Shown here piece after piece: positions 1,189-58,100 of a stretch of 64,000 nt of DNA. Origin of the DNA: Massilioclostridium coli (GTDB taxonomy: Bacteria > Bacillota > Clostridia > Oscillospirales > Ruminococcaceae); assembly GCF_900095865.1 (NCBI RefSeq), contig NZ_FMIZ01000006.1, positions 1 through 64,000 of the forward strand, read 5' to 3'. Numbering within the stretch: position 1 is the stretch's first letter; each line of letters begins with the position of its first letter. Below the pieces are notes generated by a model. The model searched no databases. It was not told the DNA's origin and worked only from the letters and a program-made list of their open reading frames with translations. A program made the translations under genes and the position numbers.

Positions 1189-1516
1189 TGTCATCAACTC
1201 CTTCCAAATCCAGGGGTAATTTTGTTACCCTTGTATATAGCTCTGTGCCTGTGCCGTTCCCGCCCAAACTGTGGTAGCTGCGGTATAGGTATTCTACGTT
1301 TTTAAGGGCATTTGGGGTGATTACCCCTTGCCCTAAATAGTATTGGCATAACTGATATAACCTATCGTGGAGTATTGCCAGTATGCCATCCTTAACATTT
1401 TCCTGTTCTTCCACTTTTTTGGCTAGCCTATGATATCCAGTAGATAGCACAGCGGTTAATCCTACGGCAAGTACCCCGAACAAAAATTCCACCCAATATT
1501 CGATTATAAAATCCAC
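1178..1516 (-). CDS. Phage membrane protein of the lysis cassette
   Basis: A 112-residue protein with one N-terminal membrane segment (about residues 5-25, EYWVEFLFGVLAVGLTAVLS), then a charged stretch and a cytoplasmic domain with no recognised motif. Genes like this often sit between the tail fibre genes and the holin in Firmicute siphophages, where they may be a second holin or a holin modulator. That role is inferred from position only. It begins one base after the upstream gene ends and overlaps the holin gene. Confidence 0.6.
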   Translation of the reverse strand: MDFIIEYWVEFLFGVLAVGLTAVLSTGYHRLAKKVEEQENVKDGILAILHDRLYQLCQYYLGQGVITPNALKNVEYLYRSYHSLGGNGTGTELYTRVTKLPLDLEGVDDNEN

Positions 1517-2221
1517 TTATTCTACCACCTCCCACGCTTGCGGGTATTCGCCGGGACTAAAATTTGTATCCTGTCTACATCTGTACACATTGCCGTCCTC
1601 CCAAATTGCGTATTCGCCACTATGATATATATCGTGAGAGCCCTGTACTGGCACAAATGGGCGGGCTGTTTCCGGACTTGTCCCGTGTAACGATCGCCAG
1701 AAGGTATACCATGCTGGGTTATCTGGCGTGATATCAGGATAGGTTGCTGTATCGTGGGATTGATAACACTCCCACGTCTGACCTCTAGCGTTGCATATAT
1801 CACCGGATGGATGATTTCCTTCCACCCATACTGGGTACAACCCTGATAACTCTAATTTTTGGGTGTCGTTTTCTGGTTTTATGGTGTTAAGTAGTATTCC
1901 TGCTAACGCCTGTGCGGATTGCTCCGCACTTGGTATGTATTTGCTATTTAGCCAGGCATTTTCCCCAGCTTCATAAATTTTAATCGCATCATCCATTGGA
2001 TGTGTTGTTTCTGGGATAGTAATACCATCTATCCATTCATCCGATGGATCAACCTCTATTGGTTGCACTGTCGCATCGTCATATCTATCACTGTATTGGT
2101 TTGCTTCCTGTTTGTCTACACAATAATACTGTTTATGTTGTTCGTCCTCTTGCCAAGCAACAACATACCGATATAACAATATTGTTAATCCTTGCACGCA
2201 AAATTTTTCTTCATATTTCAA
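1517..2221 (-). CDS. Tail tip protein with C-terminal carbohydrate-binding-like repeats
   Basis: A 234-residue virion-associated protein. The last 110 residues hold two tryptophan- and tyrosine-rich modules, one beginning SGLYPVWVEGNHPSGD and one containing YHSGEYAIWEDGNVYRCRQ. Both resemble the short chitin-binding-type (CBM5/12-like) modules found on tail fibres. The N-terminal half shows no domain I recognise. The start is TTG at 2219-2221, with GGTGG 6 nt upstream; the stop of the preceding gene overlaps it (TTGA). It probably helps bind the cell surface at the tail tip. Confidence 0.65.
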   Translation of the reverse strand: MKYEEKFCVQGLTILLYRYVVAWQEDEQHKQYYCVDKQEANQYSDRYDDATVQPIEVDPSDEWIDGITIPETTHPMDDAIKIYEAGENAWLNSKYIPSAEQSAQALAGILLNTIKPENDTQKLELSGLYPVWVEGNHPSGDICNARGQTWECYQSHDTATYPDITPDNPAWYTFWRSLHGTSPETARPFVPVQGSHDIYHSGEYAIWEDGNVYRCRQDTNFSPGEYPQAWEVVE

Positions 2222-17533: not shown

Positions 17534-17788
17534 CTAAATCAGCAACGCTTTCAATTTTTCTACAGGCGCAACTCCAGCAGCCTTAAAAATAGCCGTTTTG
17601 CCATCTATCACAACAATGGTAGGTAATTTGTCCACTAAATATTGGTCAGCTAAAAACGGCTCATTTTGAGCGTTAATACGCTGTATTTTTTCACTGCCTA
17701 TTTCCTGTTCCAGTGGTGTAATCACTTCCCGTTCTGCCAGCCGGCAGGGAGGGCACCAAGGCGCGTGGAAGAATAACAGTTTTTTCAT
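17534..17788 (-). CDS. Thioredoxin-like protein
   Basis: An 84-residue minimal thioredoxin fold. The redox motif is CPPC in FHAPWCPPCRLAE, and the cis-Pro segment is LPTIVVIDG. It is shorter than host thioredoxin (about 105), as is usual for phage versions. It might keep a viral enzyme reduced, for example the adjacent cysteine protease. That link is inferred from its position alone. Confidence 0.85.
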   Translation of the reverse strand: MKKLLFFHAPWCPPCRLAEREVITPLEQEIGSEKIQRINAQNEPFLADQYLVDKLPTIVVIDGKTAIFKAAGVAPVEKLKALLI

Positions 17789-19230: not shown

Positions 19231-19276
19231 TTTTCTTTGTGGGTACAATCTAATTATAATGTAGCTACAAAGAAAA
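19231..19276. promoter_or_regulatory. Operator inverted repeat over the RHH gene promoter
   Basis: The arms are 19231-19246 (TTTTCTTTGTGGGTAC) and 19261-19276 (GTAGCTACAAAGAAAA), matching at 14 of 16 positions as an inverted repeat, with a 14-bp AT-rich centre that contains the -10 box. This fits autoregulation by the RHH protein. A related half-site TTCTTTGTG recurs at 18992-19000, at the start of the antisense RNA. Confidence 0.65.
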
Positions 19277-19281
19277 GTCAA
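19253..19281 (-). promoter_or_regulatory. Sigma-A promoter of the RHH-antirepressor unit
   Basis: On the minus strand: TTGACT (19276-19281), 17-base spacer, TATAAT (19253-19258). Transcription would begin near 19246, with the AGGAGG of the RHH gene shortly after. This gives the module an expression unit separate from the late operon. Confidence 0.8.
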
Positions 19282-19307
19282 GAGGTTTTCAAAAATTTTT
19301 CCATAAG

Positions 19308-19333
19308 AAAAGCACACCCGAAAGTGTGCTTTT
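19308..19333 (-). terminator. Terminator between MuF-linked small genes and the RHH unit
   Basis: AAAAGCACAC (19308-19317) pairs with GTGTGCTTTT (19324-19333) around a 6-base loop; T-rich tracts follow on both strands. It can stop leftward transcripts of the head genes before the RHH-antirepressor unit. Confidence 0.7.
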
Positions 19334-19349
19334 ATTTATAGCTTTCCAA

Positions 19350-19580: not shown

Positions 19581-19763
19581 TCAATCCTCATCGATAGAAT
19601 GTAATTCATCAATACTTTTGATCCGGCCTGCTTTAATTAAAATTTCCGCTAGTTCTTTTCGGGCTGCCATTTGTTCCTCTTTAGAAATTTCTCTATAGCC
19701 TGTAGTAACGCCTTTCATAGGGACATGCCAGCGGCGGTCAGAATATGGTTTCTTTTCCGGCAT
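19581..19763 (-). CDS. Small phage protein of unknown function
   Basis: A 60-residue protein (MPEKKPYSDRRWHVPMKGVT; EEQMAARKELAEILIKAGRI) that starts inside the last codons of the MuF gene, with GGAGG about 8 nt upstream. The overlap and ribosome binding site support it as a real coupled gene. The function is not known. Confidence 0.55.
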   Translation of the reverse strand: MPEKKPYSDRRWHVPMKGVTTGYREISKEEQMAARKELAEILIKAGRIKSIDELHSIDED

Positions 19764-21969
19764 CAGTTATTACCTCCTTCATAATGATGTTCGTAACACC
19801 ATCATCATCCACGGAAACGTCAAGTATTTCAAAGCTGCTCTTTCTTGGATAAAGGACTTCCAACTCGTTCTTATTATACGTGGAAATATCCCGTCCTCTA
19901 CTTGATTGTATCACATATATCTGGACCTGTCCACTTGCGTCATAAGGAATAGCGTCCTTTGTCATTGAAATATATTCATTATATGTTTTCGTTTTGCCCT
20001 TTTGATATTGTTTAAGAAATTCTTTCCTGTCCTCATCATAGTCAAACAATAAAGACCTATTTAAATTGCCTTGATATTTTGGCATTTTACGCAATGCGTT
20101 ATCCAAATGGTGTATGTATTCCTCATCTTCATCGTTCAATGGAGTGTTGTTCCTTAACTTGTCGTTGATAATATAGGCTTTCCCACTTACATACTGCTTT
20201 AGCGAATATTCTTCATCGTCTGTTAAAACCTTATCTGCTACATACTGATCCATCCAGGTATCCCAATCATCAACGACAATTTCAAAGGTACATCTGCAAT
20301 TACTTGTAATAATTCCATTGGCAATATATAATGTAGATAGAGAGGAGGCATCATACACATGCCCAAAGAAAGAATCGTGCTCGACACTAATAAGATCATC
20401 AAACTCTACAATTCCGGGAAAAGCATCAACGAACTCGCCAATATCTTTAACGTTTCTCGCCCGACTATCACTCGAAGACTTAAAAATTCTGGCATCGTAG
20501 TCCGTGGGCAAACGGAAGCTAATCAACTTATGATGAGTAAAAGAACCATTGAGGAGAACTTGCACAACGTCCGAGCCGCTCACAATGCCGTCCGCGGCAA
20601 GCCCCGCCCCCGTGAGCAAAAGCTCAAGACTGCGATAAGCAGACAAGCTAACTTTACTGGGTACAGGAGCCCCTACGAAAGAGATATCGCTAACGAACTT
20701 ATTAAGAGAAATATTGAGTTTGTCCCTCAGTTCGCTATTGATATTTATAATATCGATTTTGCTATTGGTGACAACATCGCCTTTGAGGTCTTTGGGGGTG
20801 GCTGGCACGCTTACGGGCGACACCGCTCCAGATTCAACGAGAGAAGCAAAAAGCTTTTCGATTGTGGGTACACCATCGTTATGTGCTGGGTTGGGTTTAA
20901 CTATAGATTCTCTCCATCCACAATAGTTGACTACCTTGTCTCCCTTGATAAGATTCTTCGCTCTGACCCATCCACGAGATGTAAGCACTATATGATTCGG
21001 GGTGATGGTAAGCCGACGGCCGTTGGAAGTAGTAATCTTGATTACATCACCTGAATACCAACTTTTAGTCATTGCTTCTATATTTGGGGCAATGACTTTT
21101 GTATCCGGCAAAACACACCAGGGATGGAATGGCGGAAAATTAACGCCTGCCTGGCGTTCTGATATTTGAAATGTTTCTTTGGCAATAGATTTACAAATAG
21201 GGCATACCCTGCCATCTTCAACAGTTGAAATTTTGTACTTTTCAAAATCTTCCATGAAGGGCTGTATTGTGCTTTCTGCCATCACATAAGTACCTTCGGT
21301 ATAAATTAAACGGTAAGCATCGTTACGGGTGACTTTGCTGAACCTCTCCCGAAGCTGACGCACAATTCTGTCATAGGAATCCCCACGGGCAAATGCCTGT
21401 GCTATATCTGTCCTCAAATAGTTGGAAAGTTTATCAACATTTTCCCATATACGCTGTGAAAAACTCTTGCCATTATTCCAGGCCACATTTACAAACAGTT
21501 TTGTGATATCTGGGTTGTTTGCGTAAAAATTCTTGCCAAACCCCATCGCTTCCGCTGCTGCGTTCACGCCGCGCTCCGCCTGTTTGTTCAAATACGCTGT
21601 GATTTGTTCATTGTTGACAGCGCCTATTTCAAGCTGTTGCATCCTAATGGAATACTGTAGCCCCTCCAGCCGGTTTAATTTGTAAATAGATTCCCTAACT
21701 GGCATTAAATCAGAGTATTGGGGGTATTTCTTCTCAAATTCATCCATCTGTTCTATCAACAGCTTTTTATCCGCGTCAGGCAAGTTTTCCATCAGCCGGC
21801 GGTATTCAATCACATTGTCTTTACCGTATTTTTGATAGTAAGCAGCTATTTCCTTTTCCAGACGCGCAAATTCAGCATCATAAAAGGACGATAGCCGTTT
21901 TTTCAATTTAGCTTCGTCCTTTTCCATCTGCCTATTCAATTGTTGTTGACGGTTCTGCCAGTATGTCAT
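19738..21969 (-). CDS. MuF minor head protein with intein and C-terminal ADP-ribosyltransferase-like domain
   Basis: A 743-codon gene after the portal. Residues 1-284 plus 558-575 form an SPP1 gp7/MuF-type head morphogenesis domain; its metal-binding-like signature (CPICKS ... FPPFHPW | CRCTFE) is split by an intein at residues 285-557. After splicing the protein would be 470 residues. The C-terminal part (about 590-743) resembles an ADP-ribosyltransferase: Arg638 in NLNRSLLF, an S-x-T-like ISMTK at 667-671, and the E-x-E pair in NELEVLYP (Glu702, Glu704). MuF fusions to toxin or effector domains are known in temperate phages, and such a protein could be injected with the DNA. It begins 3 bases after the frameshifted portal tail ends. 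Confidence 0.88.
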   Translation of the reverse strand: MTYWQNRQQQLNRQMEKDEAKLKKRLSSFYDAEFARLEKEIAAYYQKYGKDNVIEYRRLMENLPDADKKLLIEQMDEFEKKYPQYSDLMPVRESIYKLNRLEGLQYSIRMQQLEIGAVNNEQITAYLNKQAERGVNAAAEAMGFGKNFYANNPDITKLFVNVAWNNGKSFSQRIWENVDKLSNYLRTDIAQAFARGDSYDRIVRQLRERFSKVTRNDAYRLIYTEGTYVMAESTIQPFMEDFEKYKISTVEDGRVCPICKSIAKETFQISERQAGVNFPPFHPWCVLPDTKVIAPNIEAMTKSWYSGDVIKITTSNGRRLTITPNHIVLTSRGWVRAKNLIKGDKVVNYCGWRESIVKPNPAHNDGVPTIEKLFASLVESGAVSPVSVPATPKDLKGDVVTNSKIDIININSELRDKLNISLNKFVSDISFVGAPVPSKVSLSAYRSLELLLTGAGLAADGIVSGSDVVQVLLNGSFTHHKLISFRLPTDYDARIFKSSSDSRARNVKDIGEFVDAFPGIVEFDDLISVEHDSFFGHVYDASSLSTLYIANGIITSNCRCTFEIVVDDWDTWMDQYVADKVLTDDEEYSLKQYVSGKAYIINDKLRNNTPLNDEDEEYIHHLDNALRKMPKYQGNLNRSLLFDYDEDRKEFLKQYQKGKTKTYNEYISMTKDAIPYDASGQVQIYVIQSSRGRDISTYNKNELEVLYPRKSSFEILDVSVDDDGVTNIIMKEVITDAGKETIF
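20304..20332 (+). promoter_or_regulatory. Promoter of the antisense endonuclease gene, inside the intein
   Basis: TTGTAA (20304-20309), 17-base spacer and a perfect TATAAT (20327-20332) on the plus strand. The predicted start near 20339 lies just before AGAGGAGG (20341-20348), which is 10 nt from the ATG at 20359. The promoter is written across the conserved C-terminal splicing block of the intein on the minus strand. Confidence 0.6.
20359..21054 (+). CDS. Homing endonuclease with HTH and Vsr/EDxHD-like domain, antisense within the intein
   Basis: A 231-residue protein encoded on the plus strand entirely inside the minus-strand intein. Residues 12-46 form a resolvase-like helix-turn-helix (IIKLYNSGKSINELANIF; NVSRPTITRRLKNSGI). 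Residues 101-178 match the Vsr-like endonuclease core: SPYERDIANELIKR (Glu107), DIYNIDFAIGD (Asp133), IAFEVFGGGWHAYG (Glu143, His150) and KKLFDCGYTIVMCWV. A strong ribosome binding site and promoter precede it. Its codons align exactly with those of the intein and cover intein residues 22-253, including block B. It should cut intein-free copies of the MuF gene and so spread the intein. Antisense shadow frames elsewhere here lack all these marks. Confidence 0.87.
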   Translation: MPKERIVLDTNKIIKLYNSGKSINELANIFNVSRPTITRRLKNSGIVVRGQTEANQLMMSKRTIEENLHNVRAAHNAVRGKPRPREQKLKTAISRQANFTGYRSPYERDIANELIKRNIEFVPQFAIDIYNIDFAIGDNIAFEVFGGGWHAYGRHRSRFNERSKKLFDCGYTIVMCWVGFNYRFSPSTIVDYLVSLDKILRSDPSTRCKHYMIRGDGKPTAVGSSNLDYIT

Positions 21970-43623: not shown

Positions 43624-44055
43624 TTATTCTGCTGGTTCTTCTTCCATATCCAGATCAGGACCGAAATCAAACTCTAAATTTTCGCCGCAATTTGGGCATG
43701 CAATTGCACCTTCATCCAACATTTCTTCGTTGACACAGATTGTATCACCGCAAGTTGGGCAGGTTACTTCATATAAATCTTCGTCATCATCACAACAATC
43801 ACAGTCGTCCTCTTCACAGCCACAACCACAATCTTCGCCATAGACAACTTCTTCTACTGCACCCAAATCTTCATCCAGAACATCCAACAGTTCTGTTGTT
43901 TCATCAGCAGCGTCTTCTAAATCCGCCACAGTCAATGCCAGGTCTTCCAGCAAATCGGTAATTGCTTTGAGTACTTTTACTTCATCTTTATTGTCATCTA
44001 ATTTCAAGCCATCGGTCAGGCCTTTAATGTATGCCACTTTTTCTGTTAAATTCAT
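43624..44055 (-). CDS. CD1247 N-terminal domain protein with zinc-ribbon tail
   Basis: A 143-residue acidic protein. Residues 1-60 are the helical CD1247-type domain (MNLTEKVAYIKGLTDGLKLD, KVLKAITDLLEDLA). A Cys/Asp cluster (CGCGCEEDDCDCCDDDED) precedes a zinc ribbon (CPTCGDTICVNEE and CPNCGENLEF). It is conserved beside efp in Clostridia. The function is unknown; metal binding is suggested by the Cys pairs. Confidence 0.85.
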   Translation of the reverse strand: MNLTEKVAYIKGLTDGLKLDDNKDEVKVLKAITDLLEDLALTVADLEDAADETTELLDVLDEDLGAVEEVVYGEDCGCGCEEDDCDCCDDDEDLYEVTCPTCGDTICVNEEMLDEGAIACPNCGENLEFDFGPDLDMEEEPAE

Positions 44056-44162
44056 ACCTTTTACCTCCCTTATGCAGAAAAACCTGCATGGTATCTAAAA
44101 CTTTTACCTGTGTTATTATTCCCCTGATAAAAGCCCCTTATGACGGATATTTTAAGAAAAGA

Positions 44163-44720
44163 TTATGCTCTTTCCATATATTCGCCTGTTCTTGTATCAA
44201 TGCGGATTTTATCGCCTGGTTCAATAAACAGAGGAACTTTAATTTCCGCACCAGTTTCCAGTGTAGCTGGTTTGGTTGCGTTTGTTGCAGTATTGCCTTT
44301 AAAGCCTGGGTCAGTTTCAGTAACTTCCAGTTCTACAAAGTTTGGAGGTTCTACCCCAAACACATTGCCTTTGTAGGACAATACTTTTACTTCCATTTCT
44401 TCTTTTACAAATTTGAACGCTGGACCCAGTTTGCTTTCATCAATAGGTTCCTGTTCGTAGGTTTCCATATCCATAAAGTAATACAGGGAACCATCCGCAT
44501 ACACATATTGCATGTTACGGCGTTCAATATATGCTGTTGGGAATTTTTCTGTTGGGTTAAAGGTTCTTTCGATTACGCTACCTGTAATAACATTTTTTAC
44601 TTTAGCACGAACGAAAGCAGCACCTTTCCCTGGTTTTACATGTTGGAACTCAACAACTTGAAGAACGTTGCCGTCCATGTCAAAAGTAACACCATTTTTA
44701 AAATCGCCAGCTGAAATCAT
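44163..44720 (-). CDS. efp: Elongation factor P
   Basis: A 185-residue translation factor that rescues ribosomes stalled at polyproline. It opens [20 protein letters not shown] with the KOW-like domain, has [20 protein letters not shown] with the modified Lys position, and ends with the OB domain signature [17 protein letters not shown]. Length and motifs are standard. Confidence 0.98.
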
Positions 44721-54206: not shown

Positions 54207-55115
54207 CTATTCTTCAAACAGTGCGTTAACAAAATCAGTCGGATTAAACGGCTGTAAATCATCCAGTTGCTCCCCAACGCCAATGTATTTAATCGGCAAG
54301 CCAAGGTCTTCTTTGATGGCAATCACTACGCCGCCTTTTGCGGTACCATCCAGTTTGGTCAAAATAATTCCAGTGATACCAGCTGCTTCTTTAAATTCCC
54401 TTGCCTGGTTGACACCATTTTGTCCTGTAGTAGCATCTACTACCAGCAATACTTCTTTATCGCAGCCTTCTGCTTCCCTCTCAATGACACGGGAGATTTT
54501 GTTCAGCTCGTTCATCAAATTTTTCTTGTTATGCAACCTCCCAGCAGTATCACAAATGGCAACATCCATATTTCTGCTTTTCGCTGCTGCAATAGTATCA
54601 AATACCACAGCTGCTGGGTCAGATCCTTCATCATGGCGCACCATTTGCACCCCACTGCGTTCCGCCCAGATTTCTAACTGGTCGATAGCTGCTGCACGGA
54701 AAGTATCTGCTGCACCTAAAATTACCTTTTTCCCCTGTGATTTTAAATGGGCTGCCAATTTACCAATCGTTGTTGTTTTGCCTACCCCGTTTACACCAAT
54801 GACTAATATCATGGATGGCTGTGTGGAAATATTCAATTCTTCCCCACCGGAAAGCATATCAATCATAATTTCTTTTAACAGCTCCCTTACTTGTGCAGGG
54901 TCTTTTATTCCACGTTCTTTTACGGTTTTGCGGAGTTGTTCACAAATCCGCATAGAGGTATTTACCCCAACATCGGACATGATCAAAATTTCTTCCAGTT
55001 CTTCAAATAGTTCTTCATCAATCTTGGTAAAAGAATGGAAAACATGTTCCATCTGTTTTACCATGTTCTCTTTTGTCTTTTTTAATCCGTTTTTAATCTT
55101 ATCAAAAAAGCCCAC
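54207..55115 (-). CDS. ftsY: Signal recognition particle receptor FtsY
   Basis: A 302-residue SRP receptor GTPase. The GTG start at 55113-55115 follows AGGAGG at 9 nt and gives a short N domain (GFFDKIKNGLKKTKENMVKQ) without the acidic A domain. G motifs: GVNGVGKTTTIGKLAAHL (G1), DTFRAAAIDQL (G2), DTAGRLHNKKNLMNEL (G3), TKLDGTAKGGVVI (G4) and GVGEQLDDLQPFNP. The gene follows smc by 13 bases, the usual order. Confidence 0.97.
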   Translation of the reverse strand: MGFFDKIKNGLKKTKENMVKQMEHVFHSFTKIDEELFEELEEILIMSDVGVNTSMRICEQLRKTVKERGIKDPAQVRELLKEIMIDMLSGGEELNISTQPSMILVIGVNGVGKTTTIGKLAAHLKSQGKKVILGAADTFRAAAIDQLEIWAERSGVQMVRHDEGSDPAAVVFDTIAAAKSRNMDVAICDTAGRLHNKKNLMNELNKISRVIEREAEGCDKEVLLVVDATTGQNGVNQAREFKEAAGITGIILTKLDGTAKGGVVIAIKEDLGLPIKYIGVGEQLDDLQPFNPTDFVNALFEE

Positions 55116-55128
55116 GGAAATATCCCTC

Positions 55129-58100
55129 CTAAGCATTCTGCAACTGCATTTTTTGTTCAATCTCTGTCACTTTTAACTCCAGCAATTTAGAAACCCCCTG
55201 CTCCTGCATGGTAACGCCATATAAAACATCAGCCTGTTCCATAGTACCACGACGGTGGGTAATAACAATAAATTGGGTTTTATCATCTATTGTTTTTAAA
55301 TAGGACGCAAATTTTGCAACGTTAACATCATCCAGTGCCGCTTCAATCTCATCCAAAATACAGAATGGAGATGGATTTACTTTCAGGATGGCAAAGTAAA
55401 TAGCAATCGCTACCAACGCCTTTTCACCACCGGATAGAGCAGATAGATTTTTAATAATCTTCCCTGGAGGTTGTACCTGAATCTCGATCCCACATTCCAG
55501 AATATTTTCCTCATCATCTAGGTTTAAACTAGCTGTACCGCCACCAAATAATTCTACAAAAATTTCACGAAAATGATGGTTGATTTGGTCAAAGGTAGCC
55601 CGGAACATCATGGTCATATCGCTAGTCAAATCCCGGATTAAACGTTCCAGTTCCTGTTTGGAATGTTCCACATCCTGAACTTGGCTGTTCATAAATTCAT
55701 ACCGTTCTGATACTTCCTGATATTCTTCAATCGCGCCAACATTGACTGAACCCAACCCTTTAATTTTCGATTTTACCAAATTCAGTTCTTTTTGGAATTG
55801 GAATGGGTCATCAAATGACACCGCGATTTCTTGTGCTTCTGTTGGGGCAACCTGATATTCCTCCCACATCCTAGAAATAATCGAATCATACTCTTTTTGC
55901 ATAGAAGTTTTCCGTTCCTCTAAGCGTGCTAGATTTTGTCCGATTTTTTCACGGGAAGAGGTTTGTTCTTGCTCTTTCCGACGCAACTCGGTTGTCTGTT
56001 GTTCCAATTGATTTTTATTCAGAATAGACTGTTCGATTTTAGCGGTTAAAATAGCCTGCTGTTCTGTAAAATTGTTGGATTCTTCTTCCAACAGGACAAT
56101 TTGCTGCTCTAACTGTTTGATTTGCTGTTGGTGGGTTTGGATGTTTTGCTCTAAATCCCCTAAACGGTCCTGAGCAGAACGGGAACGGTTTTCCAACTCC
56201 TGCAAAAACATCTGGGCGTTTTCCAGCTCTTTTCCACGTTCCGCACGTTGAATCCGCAATTGGTTCATCTGGTCATCCAGTTCTTTTCGTTGTCCGACCA
56301 GGTCATCACGGGATTCCTTCAAGCCAGAAAGCTCCTGTTCCACCGCTTTCATCTCGGTTTCCGACTGTTCCACAACCTGCTCCGCCTGCTTGATTTCCTG
56401 CTGGAAACGTTCGATTTCCAAAGCACACCGATCAGTTTGTGATTGTATGTCCCGCAAACGCTGTTGTTGTTGTTCCTCCAATTGAGAAAGACGTTTTTGC
56501 TCCCCAGTATAACGGATCATATCCTCATTCAAGACGGTCATTTCACTGTCAATGCCCTGTAGCTGTGCTTCCAGTTGGGACACCTGGGAATCTAACTGCT
56601 GTTTGGTCCCTTGATAACTTTCCTGTTTTTCAACCAAACGTTTTACCCCTTGTTGCAGCTCTGAAATTTCATTTTTTCGATTGAGCAAGCCTGCGTTTTT
56701 GTTTTGGGAACCGCCTGTAAATGAACCGCCTGCGTTTACCAATTGTCCATCTAATGTGACAATCCGGAATTTATATTGGTATTTCTTCGCAATTACTGTG
56801 GCGTCATCCAAATCCTCTACCACAACAGTGCGTCCTAACGCATTTAAGATAATCTGTTCATAAGCAGGGTCATAATGGACCAAATCCGAAGCAAGCCCCA
56901 AATATCCCTCTTCATTCTGTAAATTCTGCTGTAACTTGTTGCCTCTTATTGATGTCAATGGTAAAAAGGTTGCACGCCCCGCTTTTTTTTCCTTTAAAAA
57001 ACGGATTGCCCGTTTTGCCGCGTTTTCATTTTCCACAACAACATGTTGCAACGAACCGCCCAAAGCGGTTTCGATCGCAATGGCGTATTTAGAAGGAAGC
57101 TCAATCAACTGGGCAATTGTCCCATGAATTCCAGGGAGCTGCCCATGTTGGCTTTCCTTCATAATTGTTTTTACACTGTAGGCAAATCCTTCTAAGCTAT
57201 TTTCCAAATCAGAAAGGATTTTAATCCGCTGTTGATAGCTAGATATCTCTGTATTCAGCCTGTCGAGATAATCGTTTAATTCCTGCTGTTTTTTCTTACG
57301 GCTTTCCAGTTTTAACTGGTATCCTTGTTTGGAATTGGACAAACTACCTCGGTTTTCTTCCAACTGTTCCAACAGCTGTTTTACTTCCATCAGTTCTTCC
57401 TGATTGGCATTGGCTTCAGACTGTCCACGAGAATAGTTCTGTTGTAATAATTCCTGTTGATGATACTGCTGTTGAAGCTGGTCCTGTTTTGTAACAATCC
57501 CCAATTTATTTTTAGAGCGTTCCAATACTAAATGGTTTAAACGCTGGTTTAATTGCTCGTAATAATCAGAAAAATCAGAACCCTGTTGGGACAACTGCAA
57601 TAACTGTTGTTCTAATTGCTCCAGCTTTATTTGTAGTTCTTCCATTGCAGTTTGCAAGGTTTGGATTTCTTCTGCTTTTTGCAGTTTTTGTTGTTCCAAC
57701 TGTTCCGATGTTGCGGAAAACGCCCGAATTTCCTCTTGGAAACGTTGTATCGTCTCCTGGTTATGTTCAATATCGTTGTGCAATACCGCTATTTTGGCAA
57801 TGCGCTGGGAACTTGTTTGTTCATTCTGTTCTTTTTGCAAACGTAATTGTTCTGTTTGCATTTGCAACTGCTGGATTTGCTCATATACCTTTTGGGTTTG
57901 TTCTTCGATTGTGTTCAATTCACGTACAACAGTATCATAATTTTGGCGTGCCAATAATAGCTCATCTTCCTGTTGGCGCAGGTTTTGTTTGGAGGATTCC
58001 AATGTATGCACCCATAAAGAGATTTCCAGTGTTTTTTTCTGGTCTGCCAACTCCAAAAACTGTTTTGCTTTTTCAGACTGCTCTTTTAACGGTCCAATAC

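Follow-up and report, generated by a model that had tools for sequence, protein, structure and literature searches.

We analyzed a window of 64,000 nucleotides from Massilioclostridium coli (assembly GCF_900095865.1, contig NZ_FMIZ01000006.1, positions 1 to 64,000), whose minus strand carries phage head genes. Among these, a MuF-like minor capsid protein gene (19738..21969, minus strand) contains an intein (20299..21117, minus strand), and the plus strand of the same DNA holds an open reading frame (ORF) of 231 aa for a predicted homing endonuclease (20359..21054), its codons aligned with those of the intein. A first-pass annotation, made from the sequence without database searches, had drawn attention to this arrangement. 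Its observation was confirmed by the analysis reported here, and its interpretation is supported.

The host protein, intein included, is encoded by a single ORF of 743 aa and matches Phage_Mu_F in Pfam (E 6.5e-12). It also matches ADPrib_exo_Tox (PF03496, E 1.4e-10, residues 575-735), an ADP-ribosyltransferase-like domain in the C-terminal part of MuF (19741-20298, minus strand) that gives the protein a toxin-like MuF architecture. The intein occupies 819 bp, or 273 codons, between the junctions HPW^CVLPDT and IITSN^CRC. As the first-pass annotation had stated, it is complete: Cys1, TPNH at residues 39-42, HVYD of block F at 253-256 and Asn273 are all in place, with Cys+1 next. Of the residues that define class 1 inteins, Cys1, the TxxH of block B, Asn273 and Cys+1 are present, but the penultimate His is replaced by Ser272. 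Functional inteins without a penultimate His are known, and we do not take the Ser as excluding splicing. Among 72 non-redundant inteins of the family described below, the residue before the final Asn is Ser in 45, His in 20, Arg in 4 and Lys in 3; Cys1 is kept in 70 (Ala1 in the other 2), Cys+1 in all 72, and TxxH was found by a simple pattern in 69, while the final Asn was part of the rule by which relatives were delimited and is not independent evidence. The locus is not a split intein in a fractured gene, since host gene and intein form one uninterrupted ORF.

The intein matches Intein_splicing (E 4.7e-9). A Pfam scan of the window protein returned no endonuclease domain in the MuF/intein reading frame, and in 41 related inteins scanned at E 0.01 we found Intein_splicing in 40, PT-HINT in 1 and neither a further family nor an endonuclease, in line with what had been read from the window alone. 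The structural model of the intein has a mean pLDDT of 66.6, above 85 over most of both ends and below 50 at residues 70-81, 128-162 and 177-224. Its splicing core is confidently modelled as a HINT fold, and Foldseek returned seven matches at E <= 0.001, every one an intein (best 7qst, 1.3e-5).

On the plus strand, the antisense ORF covers 231 of the 273 intein codons (85%). Residue i of its product faces intein residue 254-i, so that codons on the two strands coincide exactly, and the first-pass figure of about 85% dual coding stands. Read in this register, the antisense strand is open for 237 of the 273 codons, with the three stops of the frame all outside that stretch, while the two remaining antisense frames have 6 and 33 stops. 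The protein matches HTH_7, a helix-turn-helix (HTH) family, above the curated cut-off (E 1.8e-6) and the MTES_1575 nuclease family below it (E 1.4e-7). Its model is confident (mean pLDDT 90, pTM 0.69), whereas that of the intein is confident mainly in the splicing core. It runs from the HTH through helices to a predicted Vsr-like core, and the best structural matches were Vsr and I-Bth0305I. The first-pass annotation had proposed an HTH and a Vsr-like core, and had named the lack of such a fold as evidence against itself; the prediction instead returned one. The predicted catalytic residues E107 (20677..20679), D133 (20755..20757) and E143 (20785..20787, opposite intein Leu111 of the string D(F/L)(H/K)GD) are conserved in 70, 71 and 71 of 71 sequences. 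The residue numbering proposed earlier was correct for these and for H150 (20806..20808), a possible catalytic residue, but H150 proved not to be invariant (59/71). Block B is likewise dual-coded: the same 12 bp (20992..21003) read TPNH in the intein and MIRG (residues 212-215) in the nuclease, with intein H42 kept in 71/71 sequences and nuclease I213 and G215 in 60/71 and 61/71.

The 819 bp of the intein contain apparent expression signals for the nuclease as well as its ORF. A sigma-70-like promoter, TTGTAA-17-TATAAT (20304..20332, plus strand), lies opposite block G (LYIANGIITSN) of the C-terminal splicing region, and a Shine-Dalgarno (SD) sequence, AGAGGAGG (20341..20348), precedes the ATG by a 10-nt spacer, both as first described. 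The ATG (20359..20361) lies base for base opposite the CAT that encodes intein His253 in block F, and a terminator-like hairpin (21067..21097, plus strand) begins 13 nt past the nuclease stop. Scans of the window alone showed no excess of promoters (9 found, 5.7 +/- 2.4 expected) or of terminators (2 found, 1.9 expected) over chance. Support for both therefore comes from their position in the family, for the promoter from its fixed register. At that register the window matches 10 of 12 consensus positions (p 0.007 against synonymous recoding). Across the 72 inteins, at least 10 of 12 positions match in 27 and all 12 (TTGACA-17-TATAAT) in 10, and the mean score is 7.92 as against 5.69 under synonymous recoding. 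Each of the 27 with the promoter-like match carries Ser as the penultimate residue (27 of the 45 with Ser, none of the 20 with His), an association that is confounded with clade. In 48 of the 72, a start codon faces the His of HVY in block F, at a distance of exactly 20 codons from the end of the intein, and 45 of these 48 have an SD core; the block F codons read GGAGG on the opposite strand. In L036 and L049 no nuclease start lay within the scanned range. Hairpins of 11-14 pairs followed by a T-rich stretch occur after the nuclease stop in 9 of 70 inteins (the window, L001, L002, L043, L044, L045, L050, L051 and L052), with both stem arms varying between members; they are weak in 5 more and absent from 56. 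At E 0.1, Rfam gave no family at gathering score near the element.

The first-pass annotation had suspected a wider family, and the layout proved to recur widely. A tblastn search with the antisense protein hit 124 phage records, none reaching 60% identity; in 105 the match spanned 80% or more of the query. The intein as query returned a similar set of records. We tried to delimit the intein by motif in 28 loci, the window included, and succeeded in 26, in each of which the antisense frame is open across the intein, starts near its C-terminal end and stops 2-23 codons short of residue 1. The two others are L015, which the motif did not find and which was excluded, and L030 (1866-2690, plus strand), from Gordonia phage Nordenberg, which has a different intein (Hint_2/Vint matches) at the same MuF site with no nuclease assigned and was left out of all counts after the motif step. 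In IMG/VR, the codon-aligned layout was present in 80/80 loci kept by similarity to the nuclease (the best 80 of 478 related) and in 80/80 kept by similarity to the intein (the best 80 of at least 577); both sets consist of the loci most similar to their query, and they overlap. Named bacterial genomes gave no match when scanned with the window protein as a single query, whereas an alignment (A3) found 27 loci, 25 of them with the layout. Their titles name Firmicutes, Actinobacteria, Proteobacteria, Chloroflexi, Cyanobacteria, Bacteroidota, Gemmatimonadales and Peregrinibacteria, with many metagenome bins. Closer to the window, only one of 61 genomes of the same genus or close relatives carries the nuclease, namely the window's own. 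Six IMG/VR loci in which the intein end could not be delimited (L042, L054, L056, L095, L111 and L112) were dropped, which gave a sample of 100 inteins (26 from phages and 74 from IMG/VR); removing duplicates above 93% nucleotide identity left 72 that are non-redundant. Two groups of candidates were rejected as members: matches in Prevotella phages, where only residues 9-76 (the HTH) aligned, and L235, where a nuclease-like domain lies within a long ORF with six stops opposite.

Insertion sites are similar but not uniform. The consensus at the junction is H-P-N^C-R-C, with H-3 in 59, P-2 in 48, N-1 in 51, R+2 in 56 and C+3 in 59 of the 72. Escherichia phages KMB36 and Ec1 carry the element at another MuF site (T^C...N^CRARDG). 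Other hosts are an RtcB RNA ligase (L167, 1664-3712, plus strand; PF01139, E 2.2e-122), a portal-containing protein (L173) and, in Rctr197k (KX853510; L031, 616-1968, minus strand), a dCMP deaminase by Pfam that the record calls a putative head morphogenesis protein; for L163, L195, L158 and L160 we name no host gene. In most of the records fetched the capsid gene alone is annotated, and in PV446483 the antisense frame is entered only as hypothetical proteins.

Could the antisense ORF be a by-product of the intein, a frame that merely mirrors a conserved protein? In an aligned register, conservation in the sense protein does carry over to the antisense residues, and chance alone often leaves the opposite frame open in G+C-rich genomes (for L011, log10 P is -1.3). 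Yet the antisense protein belongs to families of its own (MTES_1575 in 38 of 40 proteins checked, with various HTH families), its model folds with confidence, and the nuclease gene also occurs without an intein. Counting stops more than 30 codons from either intein end, the nuclease frame is uninterrupted in 99 of the 100 delimited inteins; stops opposite homologous inteins had been named beforehand as contrary evidence, and L049 alone has one. Summed over the 72 inteins, the log10 probability that the antisense frame would be open, given the sense residues and the codon use of each host gene, comes to -310. What weighs against taking this sum at face value is that relatives are not independent and that the stretch counted was chosen as the longest open one. 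The same choice of stretch underlies the codon counts, in which Leu is written TTA or CTA in 0 of 1,676 cases in the overlap as against 359 of 2,061 in exteins, and Ser as TCA in 2 of 1,714 as against 184 of 1,303, and 99/100 is the fairer number.

Patterns of substitution bear on the same question. We compared 25 pairs that are more than 50% identical and that share members; in all 25 the antisense protein is better conserved than the intein. Sense position 1, which is the third position of the nuclease codon, changes most in these pairs, whereas the exteins show the usual third-position pattern (24/25). Tyr130, Asn131, Asp133, Ala141, Glu143 and Arg162 are invariant among 71 nuclease sequences, and at Asp133 and Glu143 only the third base of the nuclease codon varies (entropy 1.00 and 0.98 bit; 0 at the other positions). 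We thus consider it extremely unlikely that the antisense ORF is a mere reflection of the intein.

The converse possibility is that the nuclease alone is real and that the intein frame is degenerate, open by chance as a non-splicing in-frame linker, somewhat like the ShiLan insertion discussed below. This would fit the predicted disorder over most of the intein middle (128-162 and 177-224) and the Ser that has replaced the penultimate His in most members. Against it stand the conserved splicing residues noted above, the confidently predicted HINT core, and intein His42 (invariant) and Asp114 (70/71), at which only the intein's own wobble base is free. Three homologues with no intein opposite the nuclease have 12 (L034), 2 (L221) and 6 (L235) stops in the codon-aligned opposite frame, and the open sense frame is therefore no side effect of the nuclease. 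A dead intein appears highly unlikely on these grounds.

When codons were shuffled so as to hold one protein constant, similarity of the other always dropped, in 24/24 pairs and in both directions. Distant pairs are the most telling, and for the window and L013 z was 5.8 and 6.1. At Gly113 of the intein and Ala141 of the nuclease there is almost no variation at any of the three bases, the codon being locked by both strands. The codon patterns thus indicate that both frames are under selection. Parts of the intein read as the other strand's protein: the conserved string D(F/L)(H/K)GD corresponds in part to (I/V)A(V)E143(V) read from the reverse strand, and TPNH likewise to (V/M)I(R)G. This accounts for the "similar middle segments" of MuF inteins that the first-pass annotation had mentioned, and it would explain why the middle is conserved yet predicted to be partly disordered, since it shadows the nuclease active site. 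The sequences themselves establish the layout and the fact that it recurs in distant phages and prophages, the conservation of both frames, and the fixed position of start, SD and promoter relative to the C-terminal splicing blocks.

Several observations speak to mobility. Of 119 genomes in the family to which the window belongs, 11 have the N-extein; leaving aside the genome that holds the window, the other 10 show no interruption at the site, so empty sites exist. Near-identical exteins can hold quite different inteins (L045 and L049: exteins 96%, inteins 47% identical), and unlike exteins can hold similar ones (window and L046: 25% and 50%). In Acinetobacter phage IME285 (L034; 455-1348, plus strand, and 1342-2055, minus strand, ends overlapping by 7 nt) and in L221, a stand-alone nuclease gene faces an uninterrupted gene that we call MuF-like by reading, not by Pfam; this is likely the ancestral state. 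L049 is the converse, with an intact intein and a stop within the nuclease frame.

The antisense protein might instead regulate or otherwise serve the phage; it could, for instance, be an antisense repressor acting on the capsid gene, or a nuclease directed at competitors. It combines an HTH and a nuclease with a promoter-like site of its own facing a late gene, and phages can keep out competitors by means of free-standing homing endonucleases. Such a role in place of homing seems very unlikely, as the gene is confined within the intein while the hosts vary (MuF, RtcB, dCMP deaminase), uninterrupted alleles exist, and a broken nuclease frame beside an intact intein, as in L049, is expected of a selfish nuclease between rounds of homing.

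We conclude that the locus very probably holds an intein predicted to splice and, opposite it and codon-aligned with it, a likely homing endonuclease with an apparent promoter, ribosome binding site and terminator of its own. From this anatomy and from what is known of the families we infer splicing, cleavage, copying by repair, and antisense transcription with independent early nuclease expression. Expression of the minus strand would yield the MuF precursor, from which the intein would splice itself out, restoring the conserved CRC site. The nuclease, made separately from the plus strand, would bind the intein-free MuF site through its HTH and neighbouring helices and cut it with the Vsr-like core, and repair from an intein-bearing copy would move the whole 819-bp stretch. 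Because its promoter opposes the late capsid gene, the nuclease might be produced early, or in the prophage, with its expression damped when late transcription runs across its gene; this is the least supported step.

A bolder reading, to which we give an even chance, is that of a widespread class of homing elements whose intein and nuclease depend on obligate dual coding from opposite strands. Block G would double as a sigma-70 promoter, block F as SD and start, and block B as a strand of the nuclease core. Some inteins would have exchanged the penultimate catalytic His for Ser at the -35 box, and the opposed promoter would confine the nuclease to early expression, with late capsid transcription shutting it off.

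Among known systems, the element resembles canonical inteins with a nested LAGLIDADG or HNH domain in its conserved functional site and in a nuclease expected to cut the empty site. Nested domains of such inteins occupy one conserved insertion point, according to passages of PMC6801210. Here, by contrast, the nuclease is a separate opposite-strand protein and no endonuclease domain was found in frame. The EDxHD enzyme I-Bth0305I was the nearest homing-endonuclease structure in every structure search, and E107, D133 and E143 are conserved in the present family; the EDxHD group is described, in passages of a review, as a phage family with tethered DNA-binding regions (PMC3943268). I-Bth0305I differs in being intron-encoded (3r3p is titled a mobile intron protein), whereas this nuclease lies within an intein. 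Dassa is said to have reported in 2009 fractured genes with split inteins and a free-standing EDxHD nuclease. That system shares an EDxHD-type nuclease associated with inteins, but here host gene and intein are unbroken and the nuclease overlaps the intein. Antisense homing genes of nuclear rDNA group I introns likewise lie opposite a self-splicing element with apparently their own promoter; as excerpted, that gene encodes a His-Cys box nuclease and is inserted in a peripheral loop of the RNA element, while here two proteins share the same codons (PMC9548176). The hidden HNH endonuclease of ShiLan is also an out-of-frame nuclease within an in-frame phage gene insertion, but from the sections consulted it is in a forward frame, with no splicing domain detected by its authors, in contrast to the opposite strand and splicing domain found here (PMC11855218). 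Passages of PMC8425127 and record MK931441 name the inteins in capsid morphogenesis proteins of Jerseyvirus and Kagunavirus; these belong to the same family as the window element and carry the antisense nuclease. Among the titles, abstracts and passages searched in the open PMC literature we found no antisense endonuclease gene inside an intein; a preprint on "non-canonical" phage inteins (Gosselin) lies outside that scope and may well treat the Gordonia members. On that condition, the antisense dual-coded intein would be new, antisense genes in group I introns (PMC9548176) and a forward out-of-frame gene in a non-splicing insertion (PMC11855218) being known before.

If the reading is right, this is a new intein architecture and one of the better documented examples in which two folded proteins with testable functions have long been dual-coded in antisense. 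It would offer a natural system for studying codon sharing over deep divergence and how a selfish nuclease uncouples its expression from that of its host gene, and would bear on how often gene callers overlook antisense genes. Whether a catalytic residue has been traded for a -35 box can be tested directly.

Elsewhere in the window, a sub-threshold Rfam match to STnc370 (19269-19340, plus strand; 36.1 bits, gathering 54; E 0.016) is likely due to chance. A further long opposite-strand ORF pair at 54207-55176 (317 aa on the minus and 297 aa on the plus strand) may be chance as well, and another lies at 44031-44720 (227 aa on the plus and 185 aa on the minus strand). Amid the phage head genes, a small ORF (17534-17788, minus strand) encodes a CPPC motif, which we take to be thioredoxin-like.
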